In this document: piece after piece, positions 46,842 to 63,987 of the stretch
How the letters are laid out: each line of letters starts with the position of its first letter
Position numbering within the stretch: position 1 is the stretch's first letter
Origin: an uncultured Geobacteraceae bacterium
GTDB lineage: Bacteria > Desulfobacterota > Desulfuromonadia > Geobacterales > Pseudopelobacteraceae
Assembly: GCA_903875605.1 (NCBI GenBank)
Contig: CAIQWT010000044.1
Span: 1 to 64,000, forward strand
Direction: 5' to 3'
DNA: 64,000 nucleotides
Program-made: the position numbers and the translations under genes
The notes under the pieces: generated by a model
The model's database searches: none
Told to the model about the DNA's origin: nothing
The model's input: the letters and a program-made list of their open reading frames with translations, nothing else

Positions 46842-47000
46842 GGTTACTCCTTAACTGGTGGTGATTTATTTCCTAATTTACAGGTTCAGTAAACCAAAAA
46901 CGGTAGCACAATAACACGGAGGAACGGAGGAACGGAGAAAGCAAAGGCACAAGACACAAAGACCAATTCTTTTCATTGTTTCAGCTTGGATTTTTGTTTT

Positions 47001-47130
47001 ACCCCCCTCTTTATTTTAGGAGGGGCTGGGGGTGGTAAGGTTTTGATTTTAATTCCGTTTGATTCTTAGAGATTGATGAAAAACAAAGGCGGCAACCCCC
47101 AACCGCCAATTATAAGTAAGGAGGGGGGCT
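47001..47130. repeat. 130-bp MITE-like inverted-repeat element
   Basis: The left end (47001-47036) contains C-run, AGGAGGGGCTGGGGGTGG, and the right end (47094-47129) contains ACCCCCAACCGCC ... AAGGAGGGGGG; the two are imperfect inverted copies of about 35 bases. The 57-base centre codes for nothing. This form (two GC-rich arms, AT-rich middle, no ORF) suggests a non-autonomous mobile or dispersed repeat. Whether more copies exist elsewhere in the genome cannot be seen here. Confidence 0.6.
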
Positions 47131-47342
47131 CCAACAGTTTCTCAGTGCTTTAAATGCATTATTGGCTGTACTTATAATCAGGCACAAGTTTTTCTGCAAT
47201 AGTAATGATTTTCGCTGAGTGCATTTTAAGGCATTCAGGCGCAGTTGGCTCGCCATGCTTAAAAAACAGCAAAATAAATTTCCCCGTTCCGAACGCCAGG
47301 GTAGGCTAAGAGGGAATTCGAATGCAGGCTCAAAATTTATTC

Positions 47343-47369
47343 TAAAGTTTTTTTAGTAAGCGACGATGA
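47343..47369 (+). promoter_or_regulatory. Sigma-28 (FliA)-type promoter of flagellin
   Basis: TAAAGTTT (47343-47350), 11-base spacer, GACGATGA (47362-47369). The -35 box is perfect against the TAAAGTTT-N11-GCCGATAA consensus and the -10 box matches six of eight. It is 151 bases before the flagellin ATG. Class III flagellar control by FliA is standard for flagellin genes. Confidence 0.8.
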
Positions 47370-47520
47370 GCTGAATTAACCGACCAAATACCAATAGCAA
47401 AACCGGCCACAAAAGGGGGGCATAACAGAAAAGGCCACAGCAAAGGTATTTAAGAAGTAACACTTTACATGGGCGGCAGAATGCCGTATCCAAAAAAATC
47501 CAGAAAGGAAGTAAATTACC

Positions 47521-49548: not shown

Positions 49549-49585
49549 TAACAAGTAATACAGCCGAAGAAACGGCGGCATAACG

Positions 49586-49612
49586 GGGAGGGGGTAGAAT
49601 GCCCCCTCCCTT
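49586..49612 (+). terminator. GC-rich hairpin after flagellin
   Basis: GGGAGGGGG (49586-49594) pairs perfectly with CCCCCTCCC (49602-49610) across a 7-base loop, followed only by TT. It is 38 bases after the flagellin stop. It may partly terminate or protect the flagellin message, with the next gene (start 49634) read through less. Confidence 0.65.
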
Positions 49613-49633
49613 AAAAAGCCGGAGGATAATACC

Positions 49634-50452
49634 ATGACCATGACAACACAACCTATCAAGAATGATCAGGCTGTAGCGCAAATGGTGAGCAATCAGGCAA
49701 CATTACCTCAAAACTCACACTTGGCTCCACAGTCACAGCAGTCACACAAATCACCACCTGGTACCGATAAGGTTGTACATGGTAATAAGGCTGCCGACGG
49801 TGATAACAGTGCAAAAAACGCCAACAGCTTCAATGCTGCTGCGGCTAAAGATATCCTTTCCGGCGCTACAACTGCATCAGCCAAGGATGCTACAACGCGC
49901 CTGAATGGTCTCCAAAGTGGTAAAGAAACTGGTGAGCTACAGGTTTTGGCGGTACGTACCAGCAAAGCGGTTGAAAAGCAGATGGAAACAGTGCAGTCGA
50001 CGATGAATGAGATCGTCAACAGCTATCCGCCTTTTCTTCGTGGCAGCGAAAAACGTCAGCAGTATTTGATGAGTATCAGTAGCATCCGTCAGCAGATTGA
50101 GGCCATGACGATTCCGCCAACCGGCAAGCTCGATAGCCCTTCACTCGACGCAACCTCAAGTAAAGAAGCAAAGAAGATGTGGGCGAATCTGTTTCAGGAT
50201 GTCAATGTTCCGGCTCTTGCCGCTAATGGCCCCGGTGAAGCCAGTGACGCGCAGATTAAGGCAGCATCTGCTGCCGTTGGCATCTCTAAAACGGATCTTG
50301 CCAACCGCCGCGATGCTTTAGAGCAACAGGCAGCACCGGTCGGAATTTCACCGATAATGGCACAGTACATGAGCCAGACTGCCGGGCATGTCCTGGCCCA
50401 GACAGGCTTATCTCTGACCACCAACCTTACCGGAGTGCTTAAGGGCTTATAG
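49634..50452 (+). CDS. Unrecognised protein downstream of flagellin
   Basis: A 272-aa protein that I do not recognise. The first about 85 residues are low-complexity, rich in Gln, Ser, Asn and Lys; the middle (about 90-165) is predicted helical and ends S-Y-P-P-F-L-R-G-S-E-K-R-Q-Q-Y-L with L-M-S-I-S-S-I-R-Q-Q; the C-terminus is Ala/Gly-rich. There is no signal peptide or membrane helix. GGAGG lies 10 bases before the start. It sits between flagellin and a long hairpin terminator, so it is probably expressed with flagellin and may be a flagellar export chaperone or assembly factor (inference from position only). Confidence 0.75.
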   Translation: MTMTTQPIKNDQAVAQMVSNQATLPQNSHLAPQSQQSHKSPPGTDKVVHGNKAADGDNSAKNANSFNAAAAKDILSGATTASAKDATTRLNGLQSGKETGELQVLAVRTSKAVEKQMETVQSTMNEIVNSYPPFLRGSEKRQQYLMSISSIRQQIEAMTIPPTGKLDSPSLDATSSKEAKKMWANLFQDVNVPALAANGPGEASDAQIKAASAAVGISKTDLANRRDALEQQAAPVGISPIMAQYMSQTAGHVLAQTGLSLTTNLTGVLKGL

Positions 50453-50473
50453 CTAAACAGCTTACACGTTTTT

Positions 50474-50528
50474 TGACAGGATGAAGGCCGTATGAAATTA
50501 TACGCAGCCTTTGTCCTGTCATAGTTTT
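50474..50528 (+). terminator. Long hairpin ending the flagellin unit
   Basis: TGACAGGATGAAGGC (50474-50488) pairs with 50507-50521 over 15 bp with two G-U pairs, with an extra 5-bp inner stem (CGTAT/ATACG). TAGTTTTG follows. It should stop transcripts from fliC and the 272-aa gene, separating them from the flbT unit. Confidence 0.75.
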
Positions 50529-50625
50529 GACCACTCATACCCCTGCCAAAACCTTGACATCAACCCCGCGCATGATAAATCAGTATGTTAGAGGCTTCAG
50601 CCCAAGTCCCATCAAAATTATTACT

Positions 50626-50641
50626 AGGCACGCTTCGTGCA
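50626..50641 (+). promoter_or_regulatory. Candidate sigma-54 promoter of the flbT-flaF-glycosylation unit
   Basis: AGGCAC-GCTTC-GTGCA has the essential GG (50627-50628) and GC (50639-50640) at correct spacing and matches TGGCAC-N5-TTGCA except at two flanking positions. It is on the right strand, about 200 bases before flbT. It is also a partial inverted repeat (GCACG/CGTGC), so chance or another protein site is possible. Confidence 0.5.
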
Positions 50642-50842
50642 CAAATTATAATATATCAAACCTGCAAGACAAAACATTAACTCAACTGAATTCACTGGAA
50701 ACGGTTTATATACAATTCAAACGGATTAACATGTTCTACAGTAAAAATGATAAGCTTTTTGTTAGATTCTAATCTGAGTATTGTCTACTAAATCCAGTCT
50801 AAATAAATTCTCTTTCAAGAAAAGTTCAGTCAGGAGTTCACC

Positions 50843-51241
50843 TTGGCCCTCAAAATTTCGCTGAAACCAAACGAAAAAATGCTTCTGGGGGGGGCGGTAA
50901 TCAAGAATGGGCCGCACCCATCGGTCTTTTTCATTGAGAATAACGTCCTTGTGCTACGCGAACGGGATATTATTACCGAAGAGCTCGCCGATACACCATG
51001 CAAACAGATCTATTTTACCGTGCAGCTAATGTATTTGGATGGGGAAAATCTGGCAAATTATCACGCTGTTTACTGGCGGCAGGTGGGAGAGCTAATCGAT
51101 GTTGTAAAGACGATGAGGCCGCTTGTAACAGAGGCAAACGAGTACATTCTGGCGAGTGAATATTACAGAGCGCTCAAGACCTTAAAAAAGATGATCACTT
51201 ACGAAAAGGAGCTCCTCAACCATGCAATACAACGCGACTAA
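50843..51241 (+). CDS. flbT: Flagellin expression regulator FlbT
   Basis: A 132-aa FlbT homologue: K-I-S-L-K-P-N-E-K-M-L-L-G-G-A-V near the start, V-L-R-E-R-D-I-I in the middle and Y-F-T-V-Q-L-M-Y-L-D, followed by a helical C-terminus. In Caulobacter and other alphaproteobacteria FlbT binds flagellin mRNA and slows its translation until the hook is complete. The TTG start at 50843 follows CAGGAG at 7 bases; no ATG is near. Its end overlaps flaF by 20 bases, as expected for a coupled pair. FlbT outside alphaproteobacteria is unusual. Confidence 0.88.
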   Translation: MALKISLKPNEKMLLGGAVIKNGPHPSVFFIENNVLVLRERDIITEELADTPCKQIYFTVQLMYLDGENLANYHAVYWRQVGELIDVVKTMRPLVTEANEYILASEYYRALKTLKKMITYEKELLNHAIQRD

Positions 51242-51653
51242 CATATATGCAACAATGCAGAAGGACGGCCTTAACGGCAGAATGCTTGAAGCCCAGGTGC
51301 TCACACGCGCAGCCAATATGCTGAGAGAGTGCCAGATTCACTGGGGTGAAAATGGTCAGGATGAGCGGCTTGATACCGCAATTCGCTTCAATCAGAAGGT
51401 CTGGACATTCTTCCAGGCGGAATTATCCGATCCGGAAAATCCACTGCCGGTTGAAATCAAAAGGAATATTCTAAGCCTAAGTATCTTCATCGATAGTCGC
51501 CTGATTGAAATCTTGCTGAAGCCTGCAGCAGAGCTACTTACAGCAATAATAAGTATTAACCAGAACATAGCCGCCGGATTGATGAGTAAACCAAAATCGG
51601 ATGATAATGTTGCAGCGGTACCAGAACCGGGCAAAATGACATTTTCGGCATAG
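51222..51653 (+). CDS. flaF: Flagellin synthesis regulator FlaF
   Basis: A 143-aa FlaF homologue: E-A-Q-V-L-T-R-A-A-N-M-L, D-E-R-L-D-T-A-I-R-F-N-Q-K-V-W-T-F-F-Q, D-P-E-N-P-L-P and an I-N-x-N-I-A-A-G-L region follow the family pattern. In Caulobacter FlaF is needed for flagellin translation or secretion and works against FlbT. The start at 51222 overlaps flbT and has GGAG upstream. The last about 20 residues (P-K-S-D-D-N-V-A-A-V-P-E-P) are a low-complexity extension beyond the usual family end. Confidence 0.88.
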   Translation: MQYNATNIYATMQKDGLNGRMLEAQVLTRAANMLRECQIHWGENGQDERLDTAIRFNQKVWTFFQAELSDPENPLPVEIKRNILSLSIFIDSRLIEILLKPAAELLTAIISINQNIAAGLMSKPKSDDNVAAVPEPGKMTFSA

Positions 51654-51697
51654 CCCAAATTCTTTTGACCATCTATTAAGAAAGGGGGATTGATGTA

Positions 51698-52576
51698 ATG
51701 AAGGTAAAGATTGCCGAAACCGAGTTTGAGATAAAAAATACCCTGCCGGACATGAAGCTTCTGGTTTTGCGGATTAACGAGGTCATGCAGGAAAATAAGT
51801 CATACCTCAGCCACTTGATAGTGGACGATGCCATTGTAGCTGATGATCCTCTGGACTATGTTAAACAGAACCGGAAGTATATTAAAGTTGTTGAAGTCAT
51901 CTTAACGGCTAGCAATTCAACTCAGCAGAAAACCAAAATGACTAAATCCTCGACACGGGACAAAATCGGCCCTATGCAGGTGACAATCTCAAATATAGTT
52001 TTTGAGGTTAAACGAACCATTCCTGATGTAAAAACAATGTTCAGCAAGATAGATGAAGCAATGTCCGACTTTGGAGTCTATTTCAGCCACCTGGTTATTG
52101 ACGGTGTTGAAGTGACTGATGCTCCCCAAGAGTATGTTGTGAAAAACATTAAAGATATCAGCAATATTGAAGTAGCTTTCCTCTCTCAAGACCAATACTT
52201 TGGTCAAGTAGTCAGTATTATGAATAATTTTATTGAAAAGGCTGCACCATCTCTGAAAGAGGTAGCTGATGAGTTTTATGGGAAACCCGATAGCGAAACA
52301 TGGGACAGGTTTGAAGCGTGTATCAACGGAATCAGTTCCTTGCTTGGCATAATCAATTCTCTTGTCGCCGCCCCGGAGATTACAGGAAAAGCTGAAGCCA
52401 TTGCGGTTTTAGGAGAATCCATCGGATTGCATTTGGAAAATCTGCACACTGCTGCCAAACTGAATGACTTTACTCTTATGGCCGACATTCTTAATTTTGA
52501 ATTGGTGAAATTTTTGGAAAAGCTGCACGATGCGGTAAACGAACTAGCGCGGAGCCAAAACTATGCCACTCATTGA
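51698..52576 (+). CDS. Unrecognised protein with two tandem N-terminal repeats
   Basis: 292 aa, family unknown to me. Residues about 1-68 and about 95-165 are diverged copies of one another: both run V-K/T-I-x-x-x-x-F-E-I/V-K-x-T-L/I-P-D-M/V-K, then S-H-L-I/V-V/I-D and D-x-x-x-Y-V-x-x-N, and both end with V-E-V-x-x-L. Between them is a 25-residue polar linker. The C-terminal half (about 170-285) is helical and lacks motifs. It lies between flaF and the Maf glycosyltransferase, overlapping the latter by 14 bases, so it is certainly co-translated with it. A role in flagellin glycosylation or chaperoning is inferred from position only. Confidence 0.75.
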   Translation: MKVKIAETEFEIKNTLPDMKLLVLRINEVMQENKSYLSHLIVDDAIVADDPLDYVKQNRKYIKVVEVILTASNSTQQKTKMTKSSTRDKIGPMQVTISNIVFEVKRTIPDVKTMFSKIDEAMSDFGVYFSHLVIDGVEVTDAPQEYVVKNIKDISNIEVAFLSQDQYFGQVVSIMNNFIEKAAPSLKEVADEFYGKPDSETWDRFEACINGISSLLGIINSLVAAPEITGKAEAIAVLGESIGLHLENLHTAAKLNDFTLMADILNFELVKFLEKLHDAVNELARSQNYATH

Positions 52577-54542
52577 TAATATACTGACCCTAAAGAAGCG
52601 TTATCCGAAAATATGGACCAATCTTAAGCCTTTTATGGAAAAGATTGCAGAGTCGCCGTTCAAGCTTCTTCAATCGAAGAGCGGTCTGCCCACGCTTACG
52701 TATGAACAAGACGGCCAGACTATCTCCATTCACAGCACTTACGACCCAAGGCACGAGGCGGAAGTTTTCGCCCGCAAGCTTCGAGAAAGTGATACCTCTG
52801 GTTATAACCATGTATTTTTCTATGGAATCGGCCTTGGTTATCACATTGAAGAATTTCTCAAAGATCATCCTGATATGTTCTTCTCAATATATGAACCGAA
52901 TCCAGACGCTTTTTGTCACTTTATTATGAACCGGCGATTGGATGAGTTTCCACTCAGGCGGCTTAAAAGCCTCTATATTCAGTTTAAAGATGCAGATGCT
53001 GAAGGGCTTACGATAGATTTCTTTAATCGCTATCACGACCGTCCGTTCTTTGTTACGCTACCCGCTTACGAGCGCTTATTCAAGGACGAGTACGACAAGT
53101 ACAAGACCTTTTTTACCGATGCCATAGGTATAATATTGTCAAACCGCTATACAATGTTGGCTTTTGAAAAACGCTGGACTATCAACAGTATGCTGAATTT
53201 TGTCTCTAACCTGTATAATCGCAATATATTCAACCATGAAAAAGAACTGTTCAAGGATAAACCGGTGATATTGGTTGCAGCCGGTCCGTCGCTTGAGGAT
53301 GAATTTGAAAACCTGCGTAAAATCCGTGAGGAGGGAAGCGCCTATATCTTCTCCGTTGGCTCCGCCATCAAAGCACTGATAAATCAGGGTATAGAACCTC
53401 ACGCCACACTTACGATGGACCCCGGTGAGCCTACACTTCTAACTTTTACGGAAATTATTGAAAAAGGGATAACAACTATCCCCCATATTTATGGAACTTC
53501 AGTCGGCTTTGAAACCGTGCGCGCTTATCCTGGTCCCCAGCTTTATATGGTAATGGACAAGGATCATGTGTCGCCTTATTTTTTTAAAAACGAAGACAAA
53601 ACGCCGACCGGCATGGTAAGCGACGCTCCATCGGTCGCTATTACGTCACTGCAACTTTTGAGTCAGTTGGGGTTCAACCCGGTAATTCTTGCCGGACAGA
53701 ACCTTGGCTTTCGTAACAACCAACATTACGCAAAGGGCATCGAGTATGGTACGGGAGAAGAGTATCGTAACCATATGGCGACGGCCAGTGAAACTGCCAA
53801 TATCATTTACACAGAAGACGTTTATGGCGAAGAAATGCAGTCTAACAGGATGTACTATATCTTTCGCAAGAATATGGAATACATGGTTAACCTATTCCCT
53901 AAAACAACCTTCATAAATACGACTCGCGGAGGTGCTAAAATTAAAGGGTCCACTTTTACTGAGTTGGATATCCTGATGAAGGAAAAACTTACGGAACGAG
54001 TTGTGGATGATAAATGGCTTGATAAGATTAAGCCAGGCGGCTATGACATGAAACATCTGCTTATGAAAAAGAAGCGGATGAGTACCAGTCTCGTTCACCT
54101 CAAAAATCGCCTGGAAGAGATGGACAAAATTCTGACCGAGCTTAATAGGCACAAAGAGTATCACAACAAAAAACGTCTGGAGGAGGATTTCAAGCGTCTG
54201 GATAAGATCTTCACCGGTATAATGAAGAATGATTTTTATAGAAGTTTTGTTTCACCACTCAACATGCTGGAGACAGCGATCTTTGGCAACAGCATGGCCC
54301 TGGTTCATAAAGAGATATTCCACCCGGAGCGAGCAGCACATGTGGTTGCAAATTTTGGTCGTTATGTTTTGGAATGCAAACGAGACATTAAATATATTAC
54401 CGATGTACTTTATCAATATATTGGAGCGAATATCGATTTACTTGCTAAAGGGATACAGGACAAGGATAACGCTATATCTAAAGAAGTGGAAGCACCCGAG
54501 ATTGATGGAACGTATATGCAACTAGAAAAGGAACTACTATGA
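52563..54542 (+). CDS. maf: Motility accessory factor (Maf) glycosyltransferase
   Basis: A 659-aa Maf-type protein, the family that transfers pseudaminic or legionaminic acid to flagellin. The central MptE/DUF115-like core is visible: V-I-L-V-A-A-G-P-S-L-E-D (about 237-248), I-F-S-V-G-S-A-I-K-A-L and L-T-M-D-P, then V-A-I-T-S-L-Q-L-L and I-L-A-G-Q-N-L-G. An N-terminal domain (about 1-200) and a helical C-terminal domain (about 460-650) complete the usual three-part plan. It overlaps its upstream and downstream neighbours (14 and 4 bases). CMP-sugar substrate genes follow directly, a strong contextual support. Confidence 0.92.
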   Translation: MPLIDNILTLKKRYPKIWTNLKPFMEKIAESPFKLLQSKSGLPTLTYEQDGQTISIHSTYDPRHEAEVFARKLRESDTSGYNHVFFYGIGLGYHIEEFLKDHPDMFFSIYEPNPDAFCHFIMNRRLDEFPLRRLKSLYIQFKDADAEGLTIDFFNRYHDRPFFVTLPAYERLFKDEYDKYKTFFTDAIGIILSNRYTMLAFEKRWTINSMLNFVSNLYNRNIFNHEKELFKDKPVILVAAGPSLEDEFENLRKIREEGSAYIFSVGSAIKALINQGIEPHATLTMDPGEPTLLTFTEIIEKGITTIPHIYGTSVGFETVRAYPGPQLYMVMDKDHVSPYFFKNEDKTPTGMVSDAPSVAITSLQLLSQLGFNPVILAGQNLGFRNNQHYAKGIEYGTGEEYRNHMATASETANIIYTEDVYGEEMQSNRMYYIFRKNMEYMVNLFPKTTFINTTRGGAKIKGSTFTELDILMKEKLTERVVDDKWLDKIKPGGYDMKHLLMKKKRMSTSLVHLKNRLEEMDKILTELNRHKEYHNKKRLEEDFKRLDKIFTGIMKNDFYRSFVSPLNMLETAIFGNSMALVHKEIFHPERAAHVVANFGRYVLECKRDIKYITDVLYQYIGANIDLLAKGIQDKDNAISKEVEAPEIDGTYMQLEKELL

Positions 54543-55549
54543 TGAATTACAGATCAATTCTAGTAACAGGTGGTACCGGCTCATTTGGCAAGAAATTTAT
54601 TGAAACAATTCTTACTAAATACCCTCAGGTTGAACGTCTGGTTGTCTATTCGCGGGATGAGCTAAAGCAGTATGAAATGGCGCAAATTTATCCTGAGTCG
54701 AAGTATGCCGCGATTCGATATTTTATAGGAGATGTGCGTGACAAGGATCGTCTCATTCGAGCGTTTGAGGGCATTGATGTTGTTATTCATGCCGCTGCAC
54801 TGAAACAGGTGCCAGCCTGTGAATATAACCCCTTTGAGGCGATAAAGACTAACATACTAGGTGCTCAGAATGTAATTGAAGCAGCCATCGCTTCCGGCGT
54901 AAAAAAAGTAGTGGCACTCAGTACCGACAAGGCTGCAGCACCGATAAACCTTTATGGTGCCACCAAGCTCTGCTCGGACAAACTTTTTACTGCGGCCAAC
55001 AACTATCGTGGCAAGCGAGATCTGAACTTTTCCGTAGTGCGATATGGTAATGTAATGGGAAGCAGGGGAAGCGTCATCCCGTTTTTTCTCAATAAACGGC
55101 ATGAGGAAAGTATTCCGATCACTGATGAGGGCATGACAAGATTCAGTATTACATTGCAAGACAGCGTGAAACTAGTGTTACAGGTACTGGATGTCATGTG
55201 GGGCGGTGAAATATTTGTCCCCAAAATCCCGAGCTACAGGATCATGGAGTTGGCTGAGGCACTTGTACCGAACAGCCGTATAGAAATAGTGGGAATTCGG
55301 CCTGGCGAAAAATTGCATGAAGAGATGATTACCGAGACAGATTCCATGAATACTCTTGAATTTGATGACTATTATGTGATCATGCCTTCTTATCCACTCT
55401 GGTCACCAAAAGACTACGCTAAAAGCTATAATGGTAGACACTGCCCCATGGGTTTCCGTTACAACAGTGGAGAAAATACAGAATGGTTATCAGTTGCTCA
55501 AATACGTGAGCTGGTAAGAGTGCATGTAGATCCAGGATTCACTGTTTGA
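54539..55549 (+). CDS. pseB: UDP-GlcNAc 4,6-dehydratase (inverting), PseB
   Basis: First enzyme of pseudaminic acid synthesis: UDP-GlcNAc to UDP-2-acetamido-2,6-dideoxy-beta-L-arabino-hexos-4-ulose. The 336-aa SDR protein has the NAD(P) motif G-G-T-G-S-F-G (about 10-16), catalytic D-K in L-S-T-D-K-A and Y-G-A-T-K, and the PseB/CapD-type R-Y-G-N-V-M-G-S-R-G-S. It is soluble and short like Campylobacter PseB, not the long membrane form. The start (ATG ATG, 54539) overlaps the maf stop (ATGA). The 151 bases to the next gene are the only real gap of the island. Confidence 0.93.
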   Translation: MMNYRSILVTGGTGSFGKKFIETILTKYPQVERLVVYSRDELKQYEMAQIYPESKYAAIRYFIGDVRDKDRLIRAFEGIDVVIHAAALKQVPACEYNPFEAIKTNILGAQNVIEAAIASGVKKVVALSTDKAAAPINLYGATKLCSDKLFTAANNYRGKRDLNFSVVRYGNVMGSRGSVIPFFLNKRHEESIPITDEGMTRFSITLQDSVKLVLQVLDVMWGGEIFVPKIPSYRIMELAEALVPNSRIEIVGIRPGEKLHEEMITETDSMNTLEFDDYYVIMPSYPLWSPKDYAKSYNGRHCPMGFRYNSGENTEWLSVAQIRELVRVHVDPGFTV

Positions 55550-55700
55550 AAAAACTGTGACGGAGTTGCTAAAAGCATAATATCAAAATATTACTTGTAC
55601 AGGATTAACCAATAACCAGTTAGTTTTTTAATAATTTATAATTATCAGCTATGTATCCGCATTTATCCTGTCTGTAATAATATAGAAAGCAAACACTTAA

Positions 55701-56873
55701 ATGGACGATACTTTCATTCCATACGGTCGGCAATCCATATCTGAGGCTGATATCCAGGCCGTTGTCGATATTCTTCGCTCCGATTTTTTGACTCAAGGCC
55801 CAGCCGTTGAGCATTTTGAGCGCTCCATCTCCGATTATTGCGGTGTCACTTATGCTGTGGCAGTTAACAGCGCAACTTCCGCCCTTCACATCGCCTGCCT
55901 TGCTGCTGGACTGGGTTCCGGTGATATCCTCTGGACATCACCCAATACCTTTGTGGCATCAGCCAACTGCGGCCTTTATTGTGGTGCGTCAGTAGACTTT
56001 GTTGATATTGATCCCAATACCTATAATATGAGTACAACTGCACTGGAAACTAAGCTGATAAAGGCAAGACTGGCGGGTAAGTTGCCTAAAGTTTTAATAC
56101 CGGTGCATTTTGCCGGACAGTCGTGCGATATGGCGCGTATTGCAGAATTGGGGAGAGAGTACGGATTTACAGTGATTGAGGACGCCTCACACTCCATTGG
56201 TGGAAAGTATCTGGTTGAACCAATTGGAAACTGCCGTTATTCTGATATGACGGTATTTAGTTTTCACCCTGTCAAGATTGTGACTACCGGTGAAGGAGGC
56301 ATGGTTGTTACAAACAGCAAAGATCTCCATGAAGAGTTAGTAAGGTTGCGTAGCCACGGTATTACTCGTGATCCAGCTTTAATGGAAGGGGATAATAACG
56401 GGGCATGGGTTTATCAACAGGTGGAGTTGGGTTTCAACTATCGTATGACCGATTTACAGGCAGCTTTGGGCACAAGTCAGATGAATCGATTGGATGATTT
56501 TGTCGCCAGGCGACATGACGTTGCGGAAAGTTATAATCAGCAATTGTCCGGTTTGCCCTTGATACTTCCGAGGCAAAATACATATGCTTATTCAGCGTTT
56601 CATCTATACGTAGTTCGAATTGATACGGCGAAAACAGGCATTACCCGGCGTCAATTCTTTGATGCTATGAGAAACGCCAAGATTGGAGTTAATGTTCACT
56701 ATATTCCTGTACATACCCAACCATTCTACCGGAAAATGGGGTTTTCAGAAGGGATGTTTCCTGAAGCGGAGAGTTATTATGAGGATGCGATCAGCTTGCC
56801 TATGTTTGCCTCAATGACTGAGCAGCAGCAGGAACGGGTAATTAAAACAGTAAGAAGTCTTTTGACCAAATAG
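55701..56873 (+). CDS. pseC: PseC-type PLP aminotransferase (DegT/DnrJ/EryC1 family)
   Basis: A 390-aa enzyme that adds the 4-amino group to the PseB product. The PLP-binding Lys lies in F-S-F-H-P-V-K-I-V-T-T-G-E-G-G (about residue 190), preceded by I-E-D-A-S-H-S (about 160) and a substrate-binding Y-R-M-T-D-L-Q-A-A-L. Length and the F-H-P-V-K motif fit PseC better than the generic sugar aminotransferases. The ribosome site is weak (AAACACTTAA). Followed after 25 bases by the NeuB-like gene. Confidence 0.9.
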   Translation: MDDTFIPYGRQSISEADIQAVVDILRSDFLTQGPAVEHFERSISDYCGVTYAVAVNSATSALHIACLAAGLGSGDILWTSPNTFVASANCGLYCGASVDFVDIDPNTYNMSTTALETKLIKARLAGKLPKVLIPVHFAGQSCDMARIAELGREYGFTVIEDASHSIGGKYLVEPIGNCRYSDMTVFSFHPVKIVTTGEGGMVVTNSKDLHEELVRLRSHGITRDPALMEGDNNGAWVYQQVELGFNYRMTDLQAALGTSQMNRLDDFVARRHDVAESYNQQLSGLPLILPRQNTYAYSAFHLYVVRIDTAKTGITRRQFFDAMRNAKIGVNVHYIPVHTQPFYRKMGFSEGMFPEAESYYEDAISLPMFASMTEQQQERVIKTVRSLLTK

Positions 56874-56898
56874 CGTAGATGTAGCAGTAGGGGGTAAT

Positions 56899-57756
56899 AT
56901 GGGCGTTCAGTTTATTGCCGAAGTTTCCAGTAACCACAGCCGCAATTTGAAAAGATGTCTGGATTTTATCGACTGCTCAGCAGAAATCGGGTGTGATGCG
57001 GTTAAATTCCAATTATTCAAAATCGAAGAATTGTTTGCTCCACAGGTGTTGGCAGTAAATGAACAGTTGAGACGCAGGAGTGAATGGGAACTCCCGGTAT
57101 CTTTTTTGCCGGAACTCGCAGACCGCTGCCGCGAAAAAAATATTCAATTTTCATGCACTCCATTTTATCTGGAAGCTGTTGAAGAGCTCCTGCCTTATGT
57201 GGATTTTTTTAAAATTGCTTCTTATGAACTACTCTGGAACGATCTGCTGATCAAATGTGCACAAACAGGTAAACCGGTTATTTTGTCTACGGGGATGGCA
57301 ACACTGGATGAGGTGAGTGAGGCAGTAACAGTTCTTAGAAGTGCTGGATGCTTGGATCTGACTCTTCTGCACTGCGTTTCAGGTTATCCTGCACCAGTTG
57401 ATGAGTGTAACCTTTCAGTAATAGAGACTTTAAGAAAATCCACCGGTTGCCCGGTTGGCTGGTCTGATCATTCTGTCTCTCAGGGTGTAATCAATCGCGC
57501 AGTTAACTGTTGGGGGGCTAGTACGGTTGAATTCCATTTGGATCTTGATGGAACGGGCGATGAATTTAACACAGGTCATTGCTGGCTACCGGAGCAGATT
57601 GGTACAGTAATCAGTGAACTAAGGATCGGTGAGGGCGCAGATGGTGATGGTATAAAAAAACCATCTGCAAAAGAACTTCCTGACAGGGATTGGCGTGCTG
57701 ACCCTGAAGATGGATTACGTCCTTTGAAAAACACAAGATTAACTTATCAGGGGTGA
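56899..57756 (+). CDS. Short NeuB-family nonulosonic acid synthase without SAF domain
   Basis: NeuB/PseI/SpsE-like synthase condensing phosphoenolpyruvate with a 6-deoxy-hexose amine. The TIM-barrel motifs are present: A-E-V-S-S-N-H (about 8-14), A-V-K-F-Q-L-F-K (about 35-42), K-I-A-S-Y-E-L and I-L-S-T-G-M-A-T-L (about 125-133), L-H-C-V-S-G-Y-P, and W-S-D-H-S (about 195). It has only 285 aa: the C-terminal SAF/antifreeze-like domain of NeuB and PseI (residues about 290-345) is missing. The usual E-K-H-F segment reads E-F-H-L-D-L-D-G-T-G-D-E-F, so one conserved Lys is changed. The last 15 residues (D-P-E-D-G-L-R-P-L) are ordered, so it is not simply truncated. It is probably a separate clade. 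Confidence 0.82.
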   Translation: MGVQFIAEVSSNHSRNLKRCLDFIDCSAEIGCDAVKFQLFKIEELFAPQVLAVNEQLRRRSEWELPVSFLPELADRCREKNIQFSCTPFYLEAVEELLPYVDFFKIASYELLWNDLLIKCAQTGKPVILSTGMATLDEVSEAVTVLRSAGCLDLTLLHCVSGYPAPVDECNLSVIETLRKSTGCPVGWSDHSVSQGVINRAVNCWGASTVEFHLDLDGTGDEFNTGHCWLPEQIGTVISELRIGEGADGDGIKKPSAKELPDRDWRADPEDGLRPLKNTRLTYQG

Positions 57757-57758
57757 TT

Positions 57759-58544
57759 ATGGCAACTGTTGCGATTATCCAGGCCAGAATGGGATCTACT
57801 CGACTTCCGGGTAAAGTTCTGAAGATGATTTTAGATAGACCGATGCTTTGGCATATTGTTAATCGGGTGAGAAAAACAGAGAGTGTCGATGAGGTTGTTG
57901 TTGCCACTTCCGATCTCCCTGCTGACGAAAAAGTACGGCAATTCTGCTCAGAAAACGGTATCTCCTGTTTCGCCGGTAATGAAGCGGATGTGCTGGATAG
58001 GTTTTACAAGGCTGCTCAGGCAAAAAATGCTGATACGATCATTCGTATCACTGGTGATTGTCCTTTTGCTGATCCTCTCATTATCGGAAAGCTGATAAGT
58101 CAATATCGCACTGGAGATTATGATCATATTGGAGTTGCTACGGGGGCCGGGGCTCTTTATCTTGAAAAAGGTCGATTTCCAGATGGGCTTGATGCCGAAT
58201 GTTTTAGCTTCGCTGCATTGGAAAAAGCCTGGCATGAAGCAGCGCATGGCAGTGACCGGGAGCACGTTACTCCGTACATATGGCGCAATAAGGAGATTTT
58301 CCGAATTGGGTCGTTGATGTGTGAGCAGGGCGATTATTCTCATCTTCGTTGGACCGTTGATAATGATGCGGACTTTGTTTTAGTTTCAAAAATTTATGAG
58401 GCTTTATACTCTGAGGAACACATTTTTCTGATGGATGATGTTTTAGAGCTCCTTAAGGGGCGTCCTGATATATGCGAGATGAATAGCGAGTTCATTGGCA
58501 AGGAAGAATACGAAAAAGTCTGGCAGGCCGGGAAAACTGAATAA
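57759..58544 (+). CDS. SpsF/PseF-like nucleotidyltransferase (CMP-sugar synthetase type)
   Basis: A 261-aa protein of the SpsF family: V-A-I-I-Q-A-R-M-G-S-T-R-L-P-G-K-V at the N-terminus (nucleotide-binding), V-V-V-A-T-S-D and I-T-G-D-C-P-F-A-D-P (metal-binding Asp region, about 90-100). It is expected to activate the nonulosonic acid with CTP or to prepare another sugar nucleotide. The GTG at 57753 and ATG at 57759 are both possible; AGGGG lies 5 bases before the ATG. It overlaps the end of the NeuB-like gene by -2 bases (TGA at 57754-57756). Confidence 0.8.
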   Translation: MATVAIIQARMGSTRLPGKVLKMILDRPMLWHIVNRVRKTESVDEVVVATSDLPADEKVRQFCSENGISCFAGNEADVLDRFYKAAQAKNADTIIRITGDCPFADPLIIGKLISQYRTGDYDHIGVATGAGALYLEKGRFPDGLDAECFSFAALEKAWHEAAHGSDREHVTPYIWRNKEIFRIGSLMCEQGDYSHLRWTVDNDADFVLVSKIYEALYSEEHIFLMDDVLELLKGRPDICEMNSEFIGKEEYEKVWQAGKTE

Positions 58545-58558
58545 TAGGAGAAAAAGAT

Positions 58559-59881
58559 ATGGGAACAGGTCAGGAACTATACAAAAAGGCTAAGTGTATT
58601 ATTCCAGGAGGTACACAACTGCTGTCCAAGAGGCCGGAAATGTTTCTGCCGGATCTGTGGCCCGCCTACTATCGCAGTGCCAAGGGGATAACAGTAACGG
58701 ATCTGGATGGCAATGAATTTATCGATATGAGTATCATGGGTGTCGGCGCCTGCATACTGGGGTACGGCGATCCGGATGTGGATGCTGCAGCAAAAGCTGC
58801 AATTGATAATGGTGTGATGTGTACACTAAACGCTCCGGAAGAAGTGGAGTTAGCCGAGTTGCTTTGTGAGCTCCATCCGTGGGCAGGTATGGCCAGGTAT
58901 GCTAGATCAGGCGGTGAAGCCATGTCACTTGCCATTCGCATTGCCCGGGCACATACCGGCAAAGAGAAAGTGGCCTTTTGCGGATATCACGGTTGGACCG
59001 ATTGGTACCTGGCTGCAAATCTTGGCGCTGACAACAGTCTGGATGGACACTTGATGCCTGGTCTGGAGCCTGCTGGTGTACCCCGTTCACTGCGGGACAC
59101 TGCTTTTCCTTTTCATTTCAACCAGATTGAACAATTGAAGGATATCGTTGCCAAACATGGAAAGGATCTTGCCGCAATTGTTATGGAGCCGGGAAGGGAG
59201 ATATCCGCTGAAGGTGGATTTCTAGAACAGGTTAGAGAAGTTGCCTCTGCAACCGGAGCCGTTCTTATCTTTGACGAAATAACGACCGGGTTCAGAATGA
59301 CAGCTGGTGGTATTCATCTGATGATTGGCGTAAATCCGGATATGGCCGTTTTTGCCAAGTCCATGGCAAATGGCTATGCCATGTCGGCTGTAATAGGCAT
59401 TTCAGAGGTAATGGAGTCTGCACAGTCGACATTTATCAGCAGTACGAACTGGACCGAACGGATTGGTCCTTCAGCTTCGCTTGCTACGATCAAAAAATAT
59501 ATCAAAGAGAATGTTGCGGAACATATTATTGGAATAGGCAATGCTGTTATGAAGGGTTGGGATGAAGCTGCAAAAGTAACAGGTCTTAAATTGCATACCA
59601 GTGGCTTGCCAACCCTGAATCACTTTAGCCTCGAATATCCGAATGAAACGGAGCTCACTACCCTTTTTATTCAGCTGATGCTGGAACGTGGATATCTTGC
59701 TTTTAATCAATTTAAGCCTTCATTTGCTCACAAGCAGGAAGATATTATCAGGTATATAACTGTTGTTACTGAGGTTTTTGCAATACTGAAAGAAGCCAAT
59801 GACAGTGGAACTGTGATGAACAAGCTGAAAGGACCTGTTGCGCGCAGAGGGTTTTACAGATTGACATCCAAGAAAGATTAA
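58559..59881 (+). CDS. Class III aminotransferase (glutamate-1-semialdehyde aminomutase-like)
   Basis: A 440-aa PLP enzyme of fold type I. Visible: R-S-G-G-E-A-M-S-L-A-I-R-I-A-R (cofactor phosphate site, about 120-135), F-D-E-I-T-T-G-F-R (about 235, PLP Asp) and F-A-K-S-M-A-N-G-Y-A-M (PLP Lys, about 265). It is related to HemL but lies in a sugar operon, so it more likely adds an amino group to a keto-sugar; HemL activity is not excluded. It has no place in the standard pseudaminic pathway, which needs only PseC. AAGGAG-like site just upstream. Confidence 0.8.
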   Translation: MGTGQELYKKAKCIIPGGTQLLSKRPEMFLPDLWPAYYRSAKGITVTDLDGNEFIDMSIMGVGACILGYGDPDVDAAAKAAIDNGVMCTLNAPEEVELAELLCELHPWAGMARYARSGGEAMSLAIRIARAHTGKEKVAFCGYHGWTDWYLAANLGADNSLDGHLMPGLEPAGVPRSLRDTAFPFHFNQIEQLKDIVAKHGKDLAAIVMEPGREISAEGGFLEQVREVASATGAVLIFDEITTGFRMTAGGIHLMIGVNPDMAVFAKSMANGYAMSAVIGISEVMESAQSTFISSTNWTERIGPSASLATIKKYIKENVAEHIIGIGNAVMKGWDEAAKVTGLKLHTSGLPTLNHFSLEYPNETELTTLFIQLMLERGYLAFNQFKPSFAHKQEDIIRYITVVTEVFAILKEANDSGTVMNKLKGPVARRGFYRLTSKKD

Positions 59882-59891
59882 GGAATATCGC

Positions 59892-60824
59892 GTGCACTAC
59901 CGCCCATACGGAAAAACCGGCTTGTCTATCTCTGCGATTTCATTTGGAACTGTTTCTCTGGGTGTGGATTATGGCATCGAGTCGCCTGGCGACTTTGGCA
60001 GACCAGATGAGTGTGCTGCGATCCGTCTCCTTGAAGAGTCCTTTGATGTAGGAATAAACCTCTTTGACACTGCTCCGGCTTATGGCGCGAGCGAGCGACT
60101 GCTTGGTATTGCACTGGGAGCAAAGAAAGACGCTATTTTTGCCACCAAGATTACCATGCCGACAGAAATTCAAACGAGAATTGAACTTAAAAAACACGTT
60201 GAAATATCGGTACTATCCAGCCTGAAAACACTCCGTAGAGACTATATCGACATCCTCCAAGTTCATAACCTGACAGTTGAAGCTCTCACAAATACAGATA
60301 TTACTGAGATACTTGCCGACTTAAAAATCTCTGGCATAACTCGTTTCGTAGGTGCGACTGTTTATAGTGAAACAGAGTCACTGGCCGTAGTCAAGTCGGG
60401 GGGGTACGATTCGCTGCAGCTGGCATTCAGTATACTCGATCAGCGACAGTCAGCAGTCGCGCTACCGGGAGCAAAATCTGCTGGAGTTGGTGTTATGGCT
60501 CGTTCGTCACTCCTTAAAGGCGCCTTGACGCCGAAGGGACGATGGCTGCCAGATGAGCTAGAAGATTTGCGGCAGTCTGTTGAAAAGGTGGTAGGTCTGC
60601 TTGAGTGCAATTGGGATGACTTACCGGAAATTGCCACACGGTATTGCCTCTCAATTCCACTTATTGATTCTGTCCTGATAGGTGCGCGCACACATGAAGA
60701 ACTTACCGCTGCGCTTGAAGCTGAGCGAAAAGGTGACCTAGGTGACGAATGTATATCTAAATGTGCGAATCTCGGGCTCAACGACGAAAATCTACTCAAC
60801 CCGTCGAAATGGCCTTTAAAATGA
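59892..60824 (+). CDS. Aldo/keto reductase
   Basis: A 310-aa NAD(P)H-dependent oxidoreductase: Y-G-K-T-G-L-S-I-S-A-I-S-F-G at the start, catalytic tetrad Asp in F-D-T-A-P-A-Y-G (about 55-62), Lys in A-T-K-I (about 84) and His in V-H-N-L (about 120). The start is GTG (59892) with AAGGA 6 bases upstream. It overlaps pseG by four bases (ATGA) and follows the class III aminotransferase by 10 bases. Its likely job is to reduce a keto-sugar intermediate, or to modify an acyl or side-chain group of the nonulosonic acid. Confidence 0.85.
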   Translation: MHYRPYGKTGLSISAISFGTVSLGVDYGIESPGDFGRPDECAAIRLLEESFDVGINLFDTAPAYGASERLLGIALGAKKDAIFATKITMPTEIQTRIELKKHVEISVLSSLKTLRRDYIDILQVHNLTVEALTNTDITEILADLKISGITRFVGATVYSETESLAVVKSGGYDSLQLAFSILDQRQSAVALPGAKSAGVGVMARSSLLKGALTPKGRWLPDELEDLRQSVEKVVGLLECNWDDLPEIATRYCLSIPLIDSVLIGARTHEELTAALEAERKGDLGDECISKCANLGLNDENLLNPSKWPLK

Positions 60825-61852
60825 GTAAGACAATTGCATTCCGCTGCGACGCATCTTCAACCATCGGCTTTGGACACTTGGTGCGCTGTATGGCTTTGGC
60901 TAATGAATTACGGGAAGGACATGATTGCCGAACGGTCTTTCTGGTTCGTCCGGATGCTTCTACACAAGCTAAATTGGCCGAATCATCACAGGAATTTATT
61001 CTTTTACCCGAGTTTAACAGTCAGGATGATTACCGCGAATCTTTGCGTAAGATACTAATAGAACTGGAGGCGAAATCGCTTGTTGTCGATGTGCGGGATG
61101 ATCTCTCAAGTGACACACTTCGCTCTCTGAAGCAGGAAAAAGTTAAGATTATTATTATCGACGACGGTAGTGAAAGGCGCCTGGCGGCGGACCTGGCGTT
61201 TTATCCGCCCGTTCCACAAGCCAAGGCACTGGATTGGGCGGGATGTGACGGCAAGATTTATTGCGGATGGGAGTGGGTATTACTTCGCAGGCAGTTTGCT
61301 TCAATTCCTGCGCGATACCCCAATCAAGTCCCGCATATACTGATAGCAATGGGTGGAAGCGATCCTTCCGGATTCACGTTAATGGCGATTGCTGCTCTTA
61401 ATAAAGTAAAAGACGACTTCTCAGCGACCGTAATTATCGGCCCTGGTTTTACTGGGAAGAGCCAATTAAAAGAAATCATTGCCGATTCAAGAAAAAACAT
61501 AAAAGTACTAGAAAAAGTTGAAGACATGGTGTCAATTATGTTGAGAACTGATTTAGCACTTGCTGCATTTGGTATGACAGCATATGAATTGGCAGCATCT
61601 GGCGTCCCGGCATTTCATTTTTGCCTGAGCCCGGACCATGCTATTTCCGCCACAACATTCGCAGATTCTGGCATTGCTTATTCTTTTGGCCATAACAATA
61701 GTCTTCAATTATCCGATGTTGTATCAAAAATAGATGCGTTTCTGAGTGATCGAAATTTATTACGTGAGATGGGACTGAGATCTAGACAATATATTGATGG
61801 CAATGGATGTAAACGGATATCGTCACTTTTGATAAACAAACGGGAGGTCTAG
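60821..61852 (+). CDS. pseG: UDP-sugar hydrolase PseG
   Basis: PseG removes UDP from UDP-2,4-diacetamido-2,4,6-trideoxy-beta-L-altropyranose. The 343-aa GT-B protein opens F-R-C-D-A-S-S-T-I-G-F-G-H-L-V-R-C (catalytic His in G-H-L-V-R-C-M-A-L-A), has I-L-I-A-M-G-G-S-D-P-S-G in the centre, and A-A-F-G-M-T-A-Y-E-L-A-A-S-G-V-P-A near 255-270. The start at 60821 (M-S-K-T-I-A-F-R-C-D) overlaps the aldo/keto reductase stop (ATGA) and is chosen over an earlier in-frame ATG inside that gene. No PseH acetyltransferase precedes it. Confidence 0.9.
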   Translation: MSKTIAFRCDASSTIGFGHLVRCMALANELREGHDCRTVFLVRPDASTQAKLAESSQEFILLPEFNSQDDYRESLRKILIELEAKSLVVDVRDDLSSDTLRSLKQEKVKIIIIDDGSERRLAADLAFYPPVPQAKALDWAGCDGKIYCGWEWVLLRRQFASIPARYPNQVPHILIAMGGSDPSGFTLMAIAALNKVKDDFSATVIIGPGFTGKSQLKEIIADSRKNIKVLEKVEDMVSIMLRTDLALAAFGMTAYELAASGVPAFHFCLSPDHAISATTFADSGIAYSFGHNNSLQLSDVVSKIDAFLSDRNLLREMGLRSRQYIDGNGCKRISSLLINKREV

Positions 61853-61853
61853 A

Positions 61854-62789
61854 TTGACAGGCACAATTACATGGAACGGTCATTGCGGGCAACTACTTGA
61901 TTCCGTAGAACAATACGACGTAATTAGTTGTAATACTTGTGGGTTCAGCCATATTGTTCCTATTCCCGGGGTTGAGGAATTGGACAAGGTATATCGCCAG
62001 GAATATTATACCAGCGAAAAGCCGCTCTTTATAGAGCGGCAACAGGAAGACATTGAGTGGTGGAACGTAGTATACAACGACCGGTATGATTTTTTTGAGA
62101 AGCATCTGTCCCCTGATCATCGTGACATTCTGGATATAGGCTGCGGGCCTGGTTTTTTCCTAAAACGTGGGCAAGAAAGGGGGTGGCAGTGCACCGGTCT
62201 TGAACCATCTCGTCAAGCGGCCTCATTTGCATTACAGCACGGTTTTACCGTAAAGAATATGTTTCTTCATGAAGCCGATTTTGTGAAGAACGGTGAACAA
62301 TTTGATGTGGTCCATTTATCAGAGGTACTGGAACATATTCCCGATCCTCGGTCTATTTGTCTTGAAGCTTACGATGTATTGAAAGATGGCGGGTTGATTT
62401 GCATCGTTGTCCCCAATGATTACAGCTCAATCCAAAATGTACTCAGGGCTGAAGCCGGTATTTCACCATACTGGTTGGCTCCACCTCATCATATCAACTA
62501 CTTTAATTTTGAATCGGCAACACAACTGCTTCGTAGCGTTGGATTTGAGATTATGGAAAGTCAAGCAATGTTCCCCATAGATTTTTTCCTTCTCATGGGT
62601 GACAATTATATAGGCAATGACGCTCTCGGAAGACAGTGTCATTTGCGGCGAAAAAATCTCGATATTATGCTGAATAACAAGTGTTTAAAAACCTTCAAAG
62701 AAGAGATGTATTCTTTGATGGCTAAACATGGTATCGGGAGGGAGGCTATCATTTATGGAAGAAAACCTACGGAGGTGTCCGTTGACTGA
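61854..62789 (+). CDS. Zinc-ribbon class I SAM methyltransferase
   Basis: A 311-aa methyltransferase. The N-terminus has a Cys-rich segment (C at about residues 9 and 23, C-x2-C) suggesting a zinc ribbon, as in sugar C-methyltransferases of the TylC type. The SAM motif D-I-G-C-G-P-G-F-F-L is near residue 85-95, with L-S-E-V-L-E-H-I-P further on. The start is TTG (61854), with GGGAGG 6 bases upstream, one base after the pseG stop. It probably methylates a sugar of the pathway. Composition becomes AT-richer from here to the end of the window. Confidence 0.8.
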   Translation: MTGTITWNGHCGQLLDSVEQYDVISCNTCGFSHIVPIPGVEELDKVYRQEYYTSEKPLFIERQQEDIEWWNVVYNDRYDFFEKHLSPDHRDILDIGCGPGFFLKRGQERGWQCTGLEPSRQAASFALQHGFTVKNMFLHEADFVKNGEQFDVVHLSEVLEHIPDPRSICLEAYDVLKDGGLICIVVPNDYSSIQNVLRAEAGISPYWLAPPHHINYFNFESATQLLRSVGFEIMESQAMFPIDFFLLMGDNYIGNDALGRQCHLRRKNLDIMLNNKCLKTFKEEMYSLMAKHGIGREAIIYGRKPTEVSVD

Positions 62790-63987
62790 AACTCCTAGAC
62801 AGCTCGTTATTGTTCAGGCAAGCCGTATTGCTTGGCATGGTGGTCAAGATCTTTGTATGAACCTGGTAGATGGCAATCCAGTTACATACTGGACCATAAA
62901 AAAAGCGGCTGAAAACATACCTAATGCAGAAATATTTGTTGCGTTTCCAGAACATGATAAGGAAGGCTCTGATGATTTTGAAAATGTTATTTCACCTTAT
63001 ATAGCGGGTTGTTATTATGGCCATTCAAGCAGTCCGCTTGCCCGTATTCTTCATCTAACGGAAAGTCTATCTAACGATGAATACATTGTTAGAATCGATG
63101 GTGTACATATGTTGTTCGATACAGAACTTACACTTAACATGCTTAATCAGGCCAGTTCCCGTAAGTTGGACTGCGTCAAATTACCGGATGATTTCCCGAT
63201 CCAATTCACATCAGATATTTATCGTGTAGGAGCTCTACGAAAACTTAATAATATTCTTAATAAGGCTAATGCCGCTGAGTATTATGTTCATCCTAAATTT
63301 TATCTTTTTGCGCATCCGGAAGAATTTAATTGCGAATATGCTAATCCTCCACACTATGAGAAGAGTTTTCTTTTAGAGTGTAGAAATTTGTGTAAAACCA
63401 TCTATGATGAGCCCCGACTTGATGTTCAAGAGAGTAAAATTATTTGGTCAGGTGATCAGATGGCTTTTCACTATGAAATTGCGAAAAAATATCTAATGCC
63501 ACACATGTCTGTGCTTGATATTGGTTGTGGAGAAGGTTTCGGTTGTCGGTTATTGGCGCCTGCAGTTAGAACAATATGTGGTTTGGATGCAGATGTTGAA
63601 ACGGTAGAGAGGGCCAAATTAATTGCGACTGCGGCAAATGTTTCATTTTGTTGCGAGGATGCAACAAATACTTCTTATGCTGATGCGACCTTCGATGTAG
63701 TTACCTGTATGGAACTATTAGAACACATACCGCCTCATTCCATTTTACAAGAAATAAAGAGAGTGCTGAAGACAGAAGGATTTGCTGTATTCAGCACACC
63801 TCAGAATTGCATGGGAGATATCCCCGTTAATTTCCAACATCTCAAAGAATTTAGTCTTGAAGAGGTCACAGGTCTTTGCCAGGAGTTTTTCAGTGTCGTT
63901 GCAGTCATCGGCATAAAGCAAGGAAGAATTGTGATTTCAGATGATCCTCGTGGCACAAATACTGTTGTAATATGCCGAAATGCTTGA
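62782..63987 (+). CDS. Fusion of SpsF-like nucleotidyltransferase domain and SAM methyltransferase domain
   Basis: From the TTG at 62782 (GGAGG 6 bases upstream) the product is about 401 aa; ATGs at 62755 and 62728 would add 9 or 18 residues. The first about 230 residues resemble SpsF/CMP-sugar synthetase folds but lack the usual Q-A-R-M-G-S-T-R signature (here V-Q-A-S-R-I-A-W-H-G-G); they keep V-R-I-D-G-V-H as a possible metal site. The last about 150 residues are a class I methyltransferase: L-D-I-G-C-G-E-G-F-G, C-G-L-D-A-D, M-E-L-L-E-H-I-P. Fusion suggests a two-step modification, or a degenerate transferase used as a binding domain. It overlaps the preceding gene by 8 bases. AT-rich codon use. 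Confidence 0.75.
   Translation: MTETPRQLVIVQASRIAWHGGQDLCMNLVDGNPVTYWTIKKAAENIPNAEIFVAFPEHDKEGSDDFENVISPYIAGCYYGHSSSPLARILHLTESLSNDEYIVRIDGVHMLFDTELTLNMLNQASSRKLDCVKLPDDFPIQFTSDIYRVGALRKLNNILNKANAAEYYVHPKFYLFAHPEEFNCEYANPPHYEKSFLLECRNLCKTIYDEPRLDVQESKIIWSGDQMAFHYEIAKKYLMPHMSVLDIGCGEGFGCRLLAPAVRTICGLDADVETVERAKLIATAANVSFCCEDATNTSYADATFDVVTCMELLEHIPPHSILQEIKRVLKTEGFAVFSTPQNCMGDIPVNFQHLKEFSLEEVTGLCQEFFSVVAVIGIKQGRIVISDDPRGTNTVVICRNA

Follow-up and report, generated by a model that had tools for sequence, protein, structure and literature searches.

FlbT depends on FljJ, a paralog of flagellin, to regulate flagellin synthesis in Caulobacter, and the block is relieved when FljJ is secreted (accessible portions of PMC7591256 and PMC9812332). 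A 2015 review, in its available sections, describes the mechanism of FlbT as unresolved and has an empty table entry for its RNA recognition (PMC4347634). FlaF and FlbT have been suggested before as a possible analogue of CsrA-FliW (PMC4894983, available text). The stretch analysed here, called the window, is the first 64000 bases of contig C44, which is 99627 bases long, in a 3.58 Mb assembly, G000, from an uncultured Geobacteraceae bacterium, and it carries flbT and flaF between a flagellin gene and a set of glycosylation genes (Table 1). Comparison of FlbT loci points, with somewhat better than even confidence, to the flagellin leader, an unannotated gene termed Y, FlbT and FlaF as a self-contained flagellin translation switch in place of CsrA/FliW.

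The matches by which a first-pass annotation named the two regulators are not weak, as both lie far over the Pfam cut-offs. FlbT aligns with positions 1-125 of the 125 in PF07378 at 134.2 bits (E 3.2e-39; cut-off 27); its two NCBIfam scores, 115 bits against a cut-off of 153 and 112.2 against one of 125, are too low to pass. FlaF matches PF07309 (E 8.8e-30, 103.5 bits, cut-off 23.6) and passes NF009435 (111.4 bits, cut-off 91). FlbT has no match below E 0.4 among PDB sequences. The same annotation described the pair as best known from alphaproteobacteria; FlbT outside that group is not special to G000, being found in 27 of 39 genomes in a search of relatives and in 22 of 395 genomes sampled from the phylum. 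The closest named record with FlbT is a Desulfuromonadaceae assembly at 80 percent identity, and in the assembly G013 flbT occurs twice, at loci alike in type (L041, L045). Across the 46 FlbT loci compared (the window, 26 from relatives and 19 from the phylum at large), flagellin with its leader and Y are conserved alongside FlbT, as FlaF usually is.

A paired AGAA element in flagellin leaders

Leaders of FlbT-bearing genomes have a common pattern, a hairpin of variable stem with an AGAA loop and then, where the ribosome binds, CCnAGAAA(A)GGAG. The pattern was scored in 46 flagellin leaders from 43 loci in 42 genomes (L028, L050 and L147, with no usable leader, are excluded), a hairpin being counted when an AGAA loop is closed by at least 4 pairs within the last 100 bases before the flagellin start. 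Such a hairpin is present in 44 of the 46 leaders, against a mean of 1.8 and a maximum of 8 in 200 shuffles, and AGAA lies immediately 5' of the ribosome-site GG in all 46. The two exceptions have loops of AGGA (G163, locus L159) and AGAT (G312, locus L154, read by eye); under the same rule a GGA-loop hairpin occurs in 1/46 leaders, that of G163. The 5' stem takes 32 distinct strings, many with a GGC core in common. Where a locus has several flagellin genes, three in L150 (G045) and two in L157 (G299), each has its own AGAA hairpin leader.

The stem also covaries. In an alignment fitted to the structure the covariation score is 0.367 against 0.129 in shuffles, with 0 of 500 shuffles as high and slid versions at 0.127 or less. 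Cells with two-sided changes number 56 against 17.6, above all 500 shuffles and the slid controls.

A search of positions 46500-55000 against Rfam gave no match up to E 1. One RNA model, R1, came out without base pairs and was discarded. A covariance model, R2, also matches L048:648-691 (E 0.0003) and L043:643-684 (E 0.016), which precede a gene for a 50-residue hydrophobic protein and at which no AGAA hairpin is evident.

The element recurs beside flbT in alphaproteobacteria. In plasmid loci with a flagellin gene near flaF-flbT or flbT, an AGAA hairpin is present in 11 of 12 leaders (no more than 3 in shuffles), compared with 1 of 28 for other genes in the same loci. These 12 leaders come from Azospirillum and Roseobacteraceae only; 5 were seen before the rule was set (4 positive), and the 7 fetched later, near copies among them, are all positive (7/7). 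The hairpin lies 64-75 nucleotides (nt) from the start in two of the twelve, and by eye the ribosome site of several Rhodobacterales leaders carries an AGAA hairpin as well. A loop in the fljK leader was reportedly found to be needed in a paper in Molecular Microbiology from 2000.

FlbT in relation to CsrA and FliW

Genomes without FlbT have GGA-loop hairpins and a GGA ribosome site at the same leader position. GGA resembles the CsrA site consensus, and CsrA and FliW were therefore searched in 80 genomes (G002, G022, G024, G360, G384, G387, G400 and G412 are excluded). CsrA is found in 0/44 FlbT-bearing genomes against 25/36 of those without FlbT, and FliW likewise in 0/44 against 25/36, in the same 25 genomes as CsrA. 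The exclusion between CsrA and FlbT has a Fisher P of 1.7e-12, a value that ignores kinship and picked sampling, the 36 FlbT-free genomes having been picked rather than randomly drawn (11 were relatives, 9 came from the class and 16 had the protein X described below). Both CsrA and FliW are missing from 11 of these 36, of which 7 have no flagellin match, 3 have weak matches that are FlgL-like by eye, and one, G104, has a flagellin with AGGA in its leader. In G000 the CsrA family PF02599 has no match anywhere, and it is not among the matches of the window's FlbT at E 0.1.

The leaders differ accordingly in the loop. A GGA-loop hairpin (AGGA or CGGA) is present in 12 of 15 leaders from CsrA-bearing genomes, in three of them at 64-67 nt from the start, and an AGAA hairpin, a distant one, in 1/15; counts in the FlbT-free and alphaproteobacterial set leave out L222, one flagellin of L248 and two of L253, which have no ATG. 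Flagellins of the CsrA-bearing genomes (n=15) start classically, with INTN or similar, and those of FlbT-bearing genomes with a motif such as DISLTAGMR, their starts having been located using a DISLTAGMR-like pattern.

The N-terminal part of FlbT resembles CsrA itself. FlbT residues 2-40 align to CsrA 1-45, from the N-terminus through the VPILRE/VHRE segment, in which the RNA-binding arginine of CsrA is presumably located. A first narrow profile comparison, based on 43 FlbT proteins of which one is alphaproteobacterial (L022), gave P 0.017 and a probability of 2.7 percent; adding diversity gave P 0.0014 and 17.7 percent, and 12 alphaproteobacterial FlbT proteins by themselves gave P 0.0002 and 47.1 percent. 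The best of 32 decoy families reached 0.037 against all FlbT and 0.024 against alphaproteobacterial FlbT. Support that grows with diversity is typical of true kinship, but in sequence profiles it stops short of proof. FlbT might then be a CsrA descendant whose target moved from GGA to GAA loops, FliW having been replaced by a flagellin-derived, export-sensing co-repressor (Y here, FljJ in Caulobacter), while leaders kept the two-site layout with the loop letter changing along with the regulator. This descent is proposed tentatively, its prospects being put a little under even.

Protein Y and a candidate translation switch

Of the 46 loci, 39 (25/27 with the window included, 13/19, and L156 from coordinates) have Y between flagellin and flbT, usually directly 3' of the flagellin gene. 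Y is found in 20 of the 395 phylum genomes, 19 of them with FlbT, and FlbT occurs without Y in 3; among FlbT-free genomes Y is found in 1/373, a weak and partial match in G073. In G045 and G081 Y is present but does not adjoin flbT. Compared with flagellin profiles, Y reaches a probability of 92.5, colinear across 199 columns, and 86.2 when L160, its most flagellin-like member, is removed, whereas none of 22 reversed or shuffled controls exceeds 18.8. Flagellin_N of Pfam matches 2 of 27 Y members (best 4.2e-7), leaving the window's Y unmatched, and the predicted structure, with a mean predicted local distance difference test score (pLDDT) of 36, is unusable. By these profile comparisons Y resembles a flagellin paralog that has degenerated; it tracks FlbT and, encoded ahead of flbT, fits by analogy the role of an FljJ-like co-repressor. 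The window has a 390-base gap between Y and flbT (50453-50842); such gaps are about 200-600 bases in the other three maf-linked loci, and the two genes are close or overlapping in most remaining loci.

The proposed switch would begin with the CsrA-like N-terminal part of FlbT binding two AGAA sites, the first in the hairpin loop and the second overlapping the Shine-Dalgarno sequence. FlbT on these sites would block ribosome entry and keep the flagellin mRNA silent. As long as Y is inside the cell it would serve as co-repressor and FlbT would repress; once the hook is finished, Y would exit through the export gate and flagellin translation would start. FlaF would escort flagellin and perhaps also Y. 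In the clade of the window, a Maf glycosylation cassette would have been joined downstream, with X as its likely adaptor.

Several observations weigh against this switch or against parts of it. Nine leaders have the AGAA hairpin farther upstream and another hairpin before the ribosome site. The alignment behind the covariation, besides being fitted to the structure, has 55 rows of which 9 are chance matches and not flagellin leaders; only 80.6 percent of its cells pair, and pairs with two-sided changes number 5 against 4.5 in shuffles, which is not above them. The variant loops AGGA and AGAT sit in two FlbT-bearing genomes without a detected Y, G163 and G312, which are possibly intermediates, and Y is likewise undetected in the FlbT-bearing G299. 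Elsewhere in alphaproteobacteria the AGAA hairpin is found in 6 of 37 other distinct leaders not chosen for an flbT neighbour (39 rows minus two duplicates, from genomes mostly without an FlbT check), and R2 found none of the plasmid leaders, so the element is common to part of the alphaproteobacteria. In the first narrow comparison of FlbT with CsrA one of the 32 decoys beat CsrA (0.0063) and one was about equal (0.019), and the probability peaks at 47 percent. The Y profile was derived from flbT-adjacent genes, which biases it toward co-occurrence with FlbT; the probability for flagellin falls to 6.6 percent when the 18 Y proteins from the window's order are used by themselves, and among 241 alphaproteobacteria searched for Y there were only 2 weak partial matches. 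FlbT of Brucella, moreover, has been proposed as an activator (PMC4347634, available sections).

Other explanations can be set against the same evidence. The AGAA hairpins might be bound by another factor, or act as plain RNA structure governing flagellin translation, with FlbT acting elsewhere: every link between FlbT and AGAA is a correlation, many alphaproteobacterial leaders have no hairpin, and G312 and G163 combine FlbT with variant loops. Yet the element tracks FlbT in the phylum, recurs beside flbT in alphaproteobacteria and occurs, at a distance, in a single one of the 15 CsrA-associated leaders, and this alternative is judged improbable. It is very doubtful that the exclusion between FlbT and CsrA/FliW is a matter of clade history, with the change from GGA to GAA as drift after CsrA loss. 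The module may have spread few times and the FlbT-free genomes were picked, but the FlbT-bearing genomes tested span 12 families and the CsrA-bearing ones 10, with no overlap, and the AGAA loop stays constant in nearly all leaders while their stems vary. As for Y, its flagellin-like profile and its usual place right after the flagellin gene would also suit a filament protein with a structural or junction role rather than a regulator. Its flagellin-like ends, however, are poorly preserved in most members, as read from the alignment, and it tracks FlbT even where the two genes are not adjacent, which leaves a structural role unlikely, if not lightly dismissed.

The glycosylation island and comparison with known systems

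Downstream of flaF, the first-pass annotation had described an unnamed two-repeat protein (X), Maf and a pseudaminic-like pathway, and had read flagellin translation control and glycosylation as one programme. The order flbT-flaF-X-maf-pse with short gaps or overlaps is real: flbT and flaF overlap by 20 nt, flaF and X are 44 nt apart, X and maf overlap by 14 nt and maf and pseB by 4 nt, the exception being the 151 bases between pseB and pseC. Sigma-70-like promoters (13 against 14.7 in shuffles) and terminator-like sites (12 against 8.6, standard deviation 3.3) are near their shuffled counts over 47000-56000, so transcript boundaries cannot be set there. The order recurs in G012 (also L021), G030 and G018, where X is short and divergent, but it is confined to 4 of the 46 FlbT loci, a count in which the downstream side of L034 is unseen because its contig stops right after flaF. 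The FlbT proteins of the four loci form one clade with support of 100/99, in a tree whose bootstrap is not fully settled, and G030 belongs to another family. A single FlbT clade that crosses families suggests a cassette that was probably assembled once and then moved, rather than general coupling.

A single co-produced programme of FlbT/FlaF control and Maf/nonulosonic acid glycosylation is therefore thought rather unlikely. The tight spacing from flbT through pseB and the repeated order speak for it, as do the long flagellins of about 560-680 amino acids (aa) in all four loci (elsewhere most are about 270-300 aa, two about 500 and three about 380-390) and the locus L145 of G325, an unrelated genome, where flaF is directly followed by pseB-pseC. 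An order restricted to 4/46 loci and one clade lends it little support, however, and X is unassociated with FlbT: a profile of four X proteins finds X in 48 of the 395 phylum genomes, only G000 among them also bearing FlbT (Fisher P 0.5). Many loci without the island have a very long opposite-strand gene facing flbT or flaF, and the five such proteins scanned are GT2/TPR glycosyltransferases; glycosylation genes near flbT or flaF are thus not unusual, and the window's arrangement is rare. The suspicion of an undescribed system was right, but for another reason, namely the upstream unit of leader, Y and FlbT.

The description of X as an unnamed two-repeat protein is borne out by two similar N-terminal stretches and by the lack of any family over cut-off, the best Pfam match being MMR_HSR1_Xtn (E 8e-4, 19.8 of 35.2 bits); five other X proteins have no Pfam match at E 0.001. 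The predicted structure, at a moderate mean pLDDT of 69, combines two beta-grasp-like repeats with a bundle of four helices at the C-terminus. Foldseek gives no match to it at E 0.001, and VIA-align returns mostly generic four-helix bundles with Z up to 14.7. A Maf-like open reading frame (by BLAST, at least 400 aa) lies within 4 kb in 25 of the 40 X loci read (L104-L143), and other X loci adjoin GT9-like genes; in L140 the order, named by eye, is maf-X-flagellin-flaG-fliD-fliS. X is perhaps an accessory of flagellin glycosylation, an adaptor offering flagellin to Maf. The window's Maf has an MptE-like domain (117.9 bits, cut-off 34.6) and a Maf N domain (30.2, cut-off 23.5).

The pseudaminic-like label is firm for PseB (511 of 407.75 bits) and PseC (560.6 of 423.5), which pass their NCBIfam equivalog cut-offs, but the NeuB-like protein misses the PseI cut-off (161.6 of 340.25 bits) and the cytidylyltransferase that of PseF (28.2 of 205.7). 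The 285-aa length of the NeuB-family protein is also found in L035 and in G030 (86 percent identity); its stop overlaps the next start and the G030 protein has the same length, so a frameshift is unlikely. The enzyme may act on a substrate other than the N-acetylated sugar that is usual, and no acetyltransferase family was found among the 17 window proteins scanned with Pfam. The sugar made here may be a nonulosonic acid distinct from pseudaminic acid. Consecutive genes for a KdsB-like cytidylyltransferase, a class III aminotransferase and an aldo/keto reductase (57753-60824), an unusual nonulosonic acid pathway, occur also in L035.

Table 1. Features of the window around flbT and the downstream island, with assigned or proposed roles.
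Feature	Coordinates	Strand	Remarks
Leader hairpin GCGGC-AGAAT-GCCGT	47473..47487	+	Ends 33 nt upstream of flagellin start; proposed first FlbT site
TCCAGAAAGGAAG	47499..47511	+	Second AGAA, overlaps Shine-Dalgarno; proposed second FlbT site
Flagellin	47521..49548	+	675 aa, long form
Protein Y	49634..50452	+	272 aa; putative degenerate flagellin paralog; proposed co-repressor with FlbT
flbT	50843..51241	+	Pfam PF07378; proposed flagellin mRNA repressor
flaF	51222..51653	+	Pfam PF07309; flagellin secretion chaperone by homology
X	51698..52576	+	292 aa; predicted two beta-grasp-like repeats and four-helix bundle; proposed Maf/flagellin adaptor
maf	52563..54542	+	659 aa; flagellin glycosyltransferase; sole MptE-like match in genome
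pseB	54539..55549	+	UDP-GlcNAc 4,6-dehydratase (inverting)
pseC aminotransferase	55701..56873	+	NCBIfam
NeuB-family synthase	56899..57756	+	285 aa, without C-terminal (SAF) part
Cytidylyltransferase	57753..58544	+	Scores nearer KdsB than PseF
Class III aminotransferase	58559..59881	+	Pfam
Aldo/keto reductase	59892..60824	+	Pfam
PseG-like protein	60761..61852	+	Named by eye; weak Glyco_trans_1_4 Pfam match below cut-off
Methyltransferase	61854..62789	+	Pfam
C-terminal methyltransferase-domain protein	62728..63987	+	Pfam

The AGAA element, Y, a possible FlbT/CsrA kinship, a shared operator and the exclusion were not found in the accessible portions of the literature on FlbT and CsrA-FliW control of flagellin (PMC7591256; PMC9812332; PMC4347634; PMC3930126; PMC4894983), and papers in Developmental Cell from 2020 and Molecular Microbiology from 2000 may hold part of this. 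Among known systems, flagellin glycosylation by Maf and by the FlmG of Caulobacter resembles the downstream part of the locus in combining a flagellin glycosyltransferase with nonulosonic acid genes. FlmG has its own TPR flagellin-binding domain, whereas the window has Maf and the separate neighbour X (PMC7591256, accessible portions).

The Caulobacter system of FlbT, FljJ and FlaF shares with the locus FlbT, FlaF, the logic of a flagellin-like co-repressor and a target in the 5' leader, as far as the accessible text of the sources goes (PMC7591256; PMC9812332; PMC4347634; PMC3930126). The window's genome differs in belonging to another phylum and in having one recognised flagellin gene, with one further, unnamed Flagellin_N match on contig C26 in a frame of 328 aa. 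Here the candidate co-repressor, Y, is a shrunken paralog encoded between flagellin and flbT, and the proposed target is a pair of AGAA sites. A conserved, covarying AGAA element beside FlbT in two phyla offers a direct candidate target for FlbT recognition.

CsrA/FliW control has the same two leader sites, a hairpin loop and the Shine-Dalgarno sequence, and the N-terminus of FlbT may be related to CsrA; in contrast, AGAA replaces GGA, and CsrA and FliW were not found in the 44 FlbT-bearing genomes. If the proposed switch is true, it would explain how bacteria that lack CsrA delay flagellin until hook completion, and the two known flagellin brakes, CsrA/FliW and FlbT with a flagellin-like partner, would share a single design.

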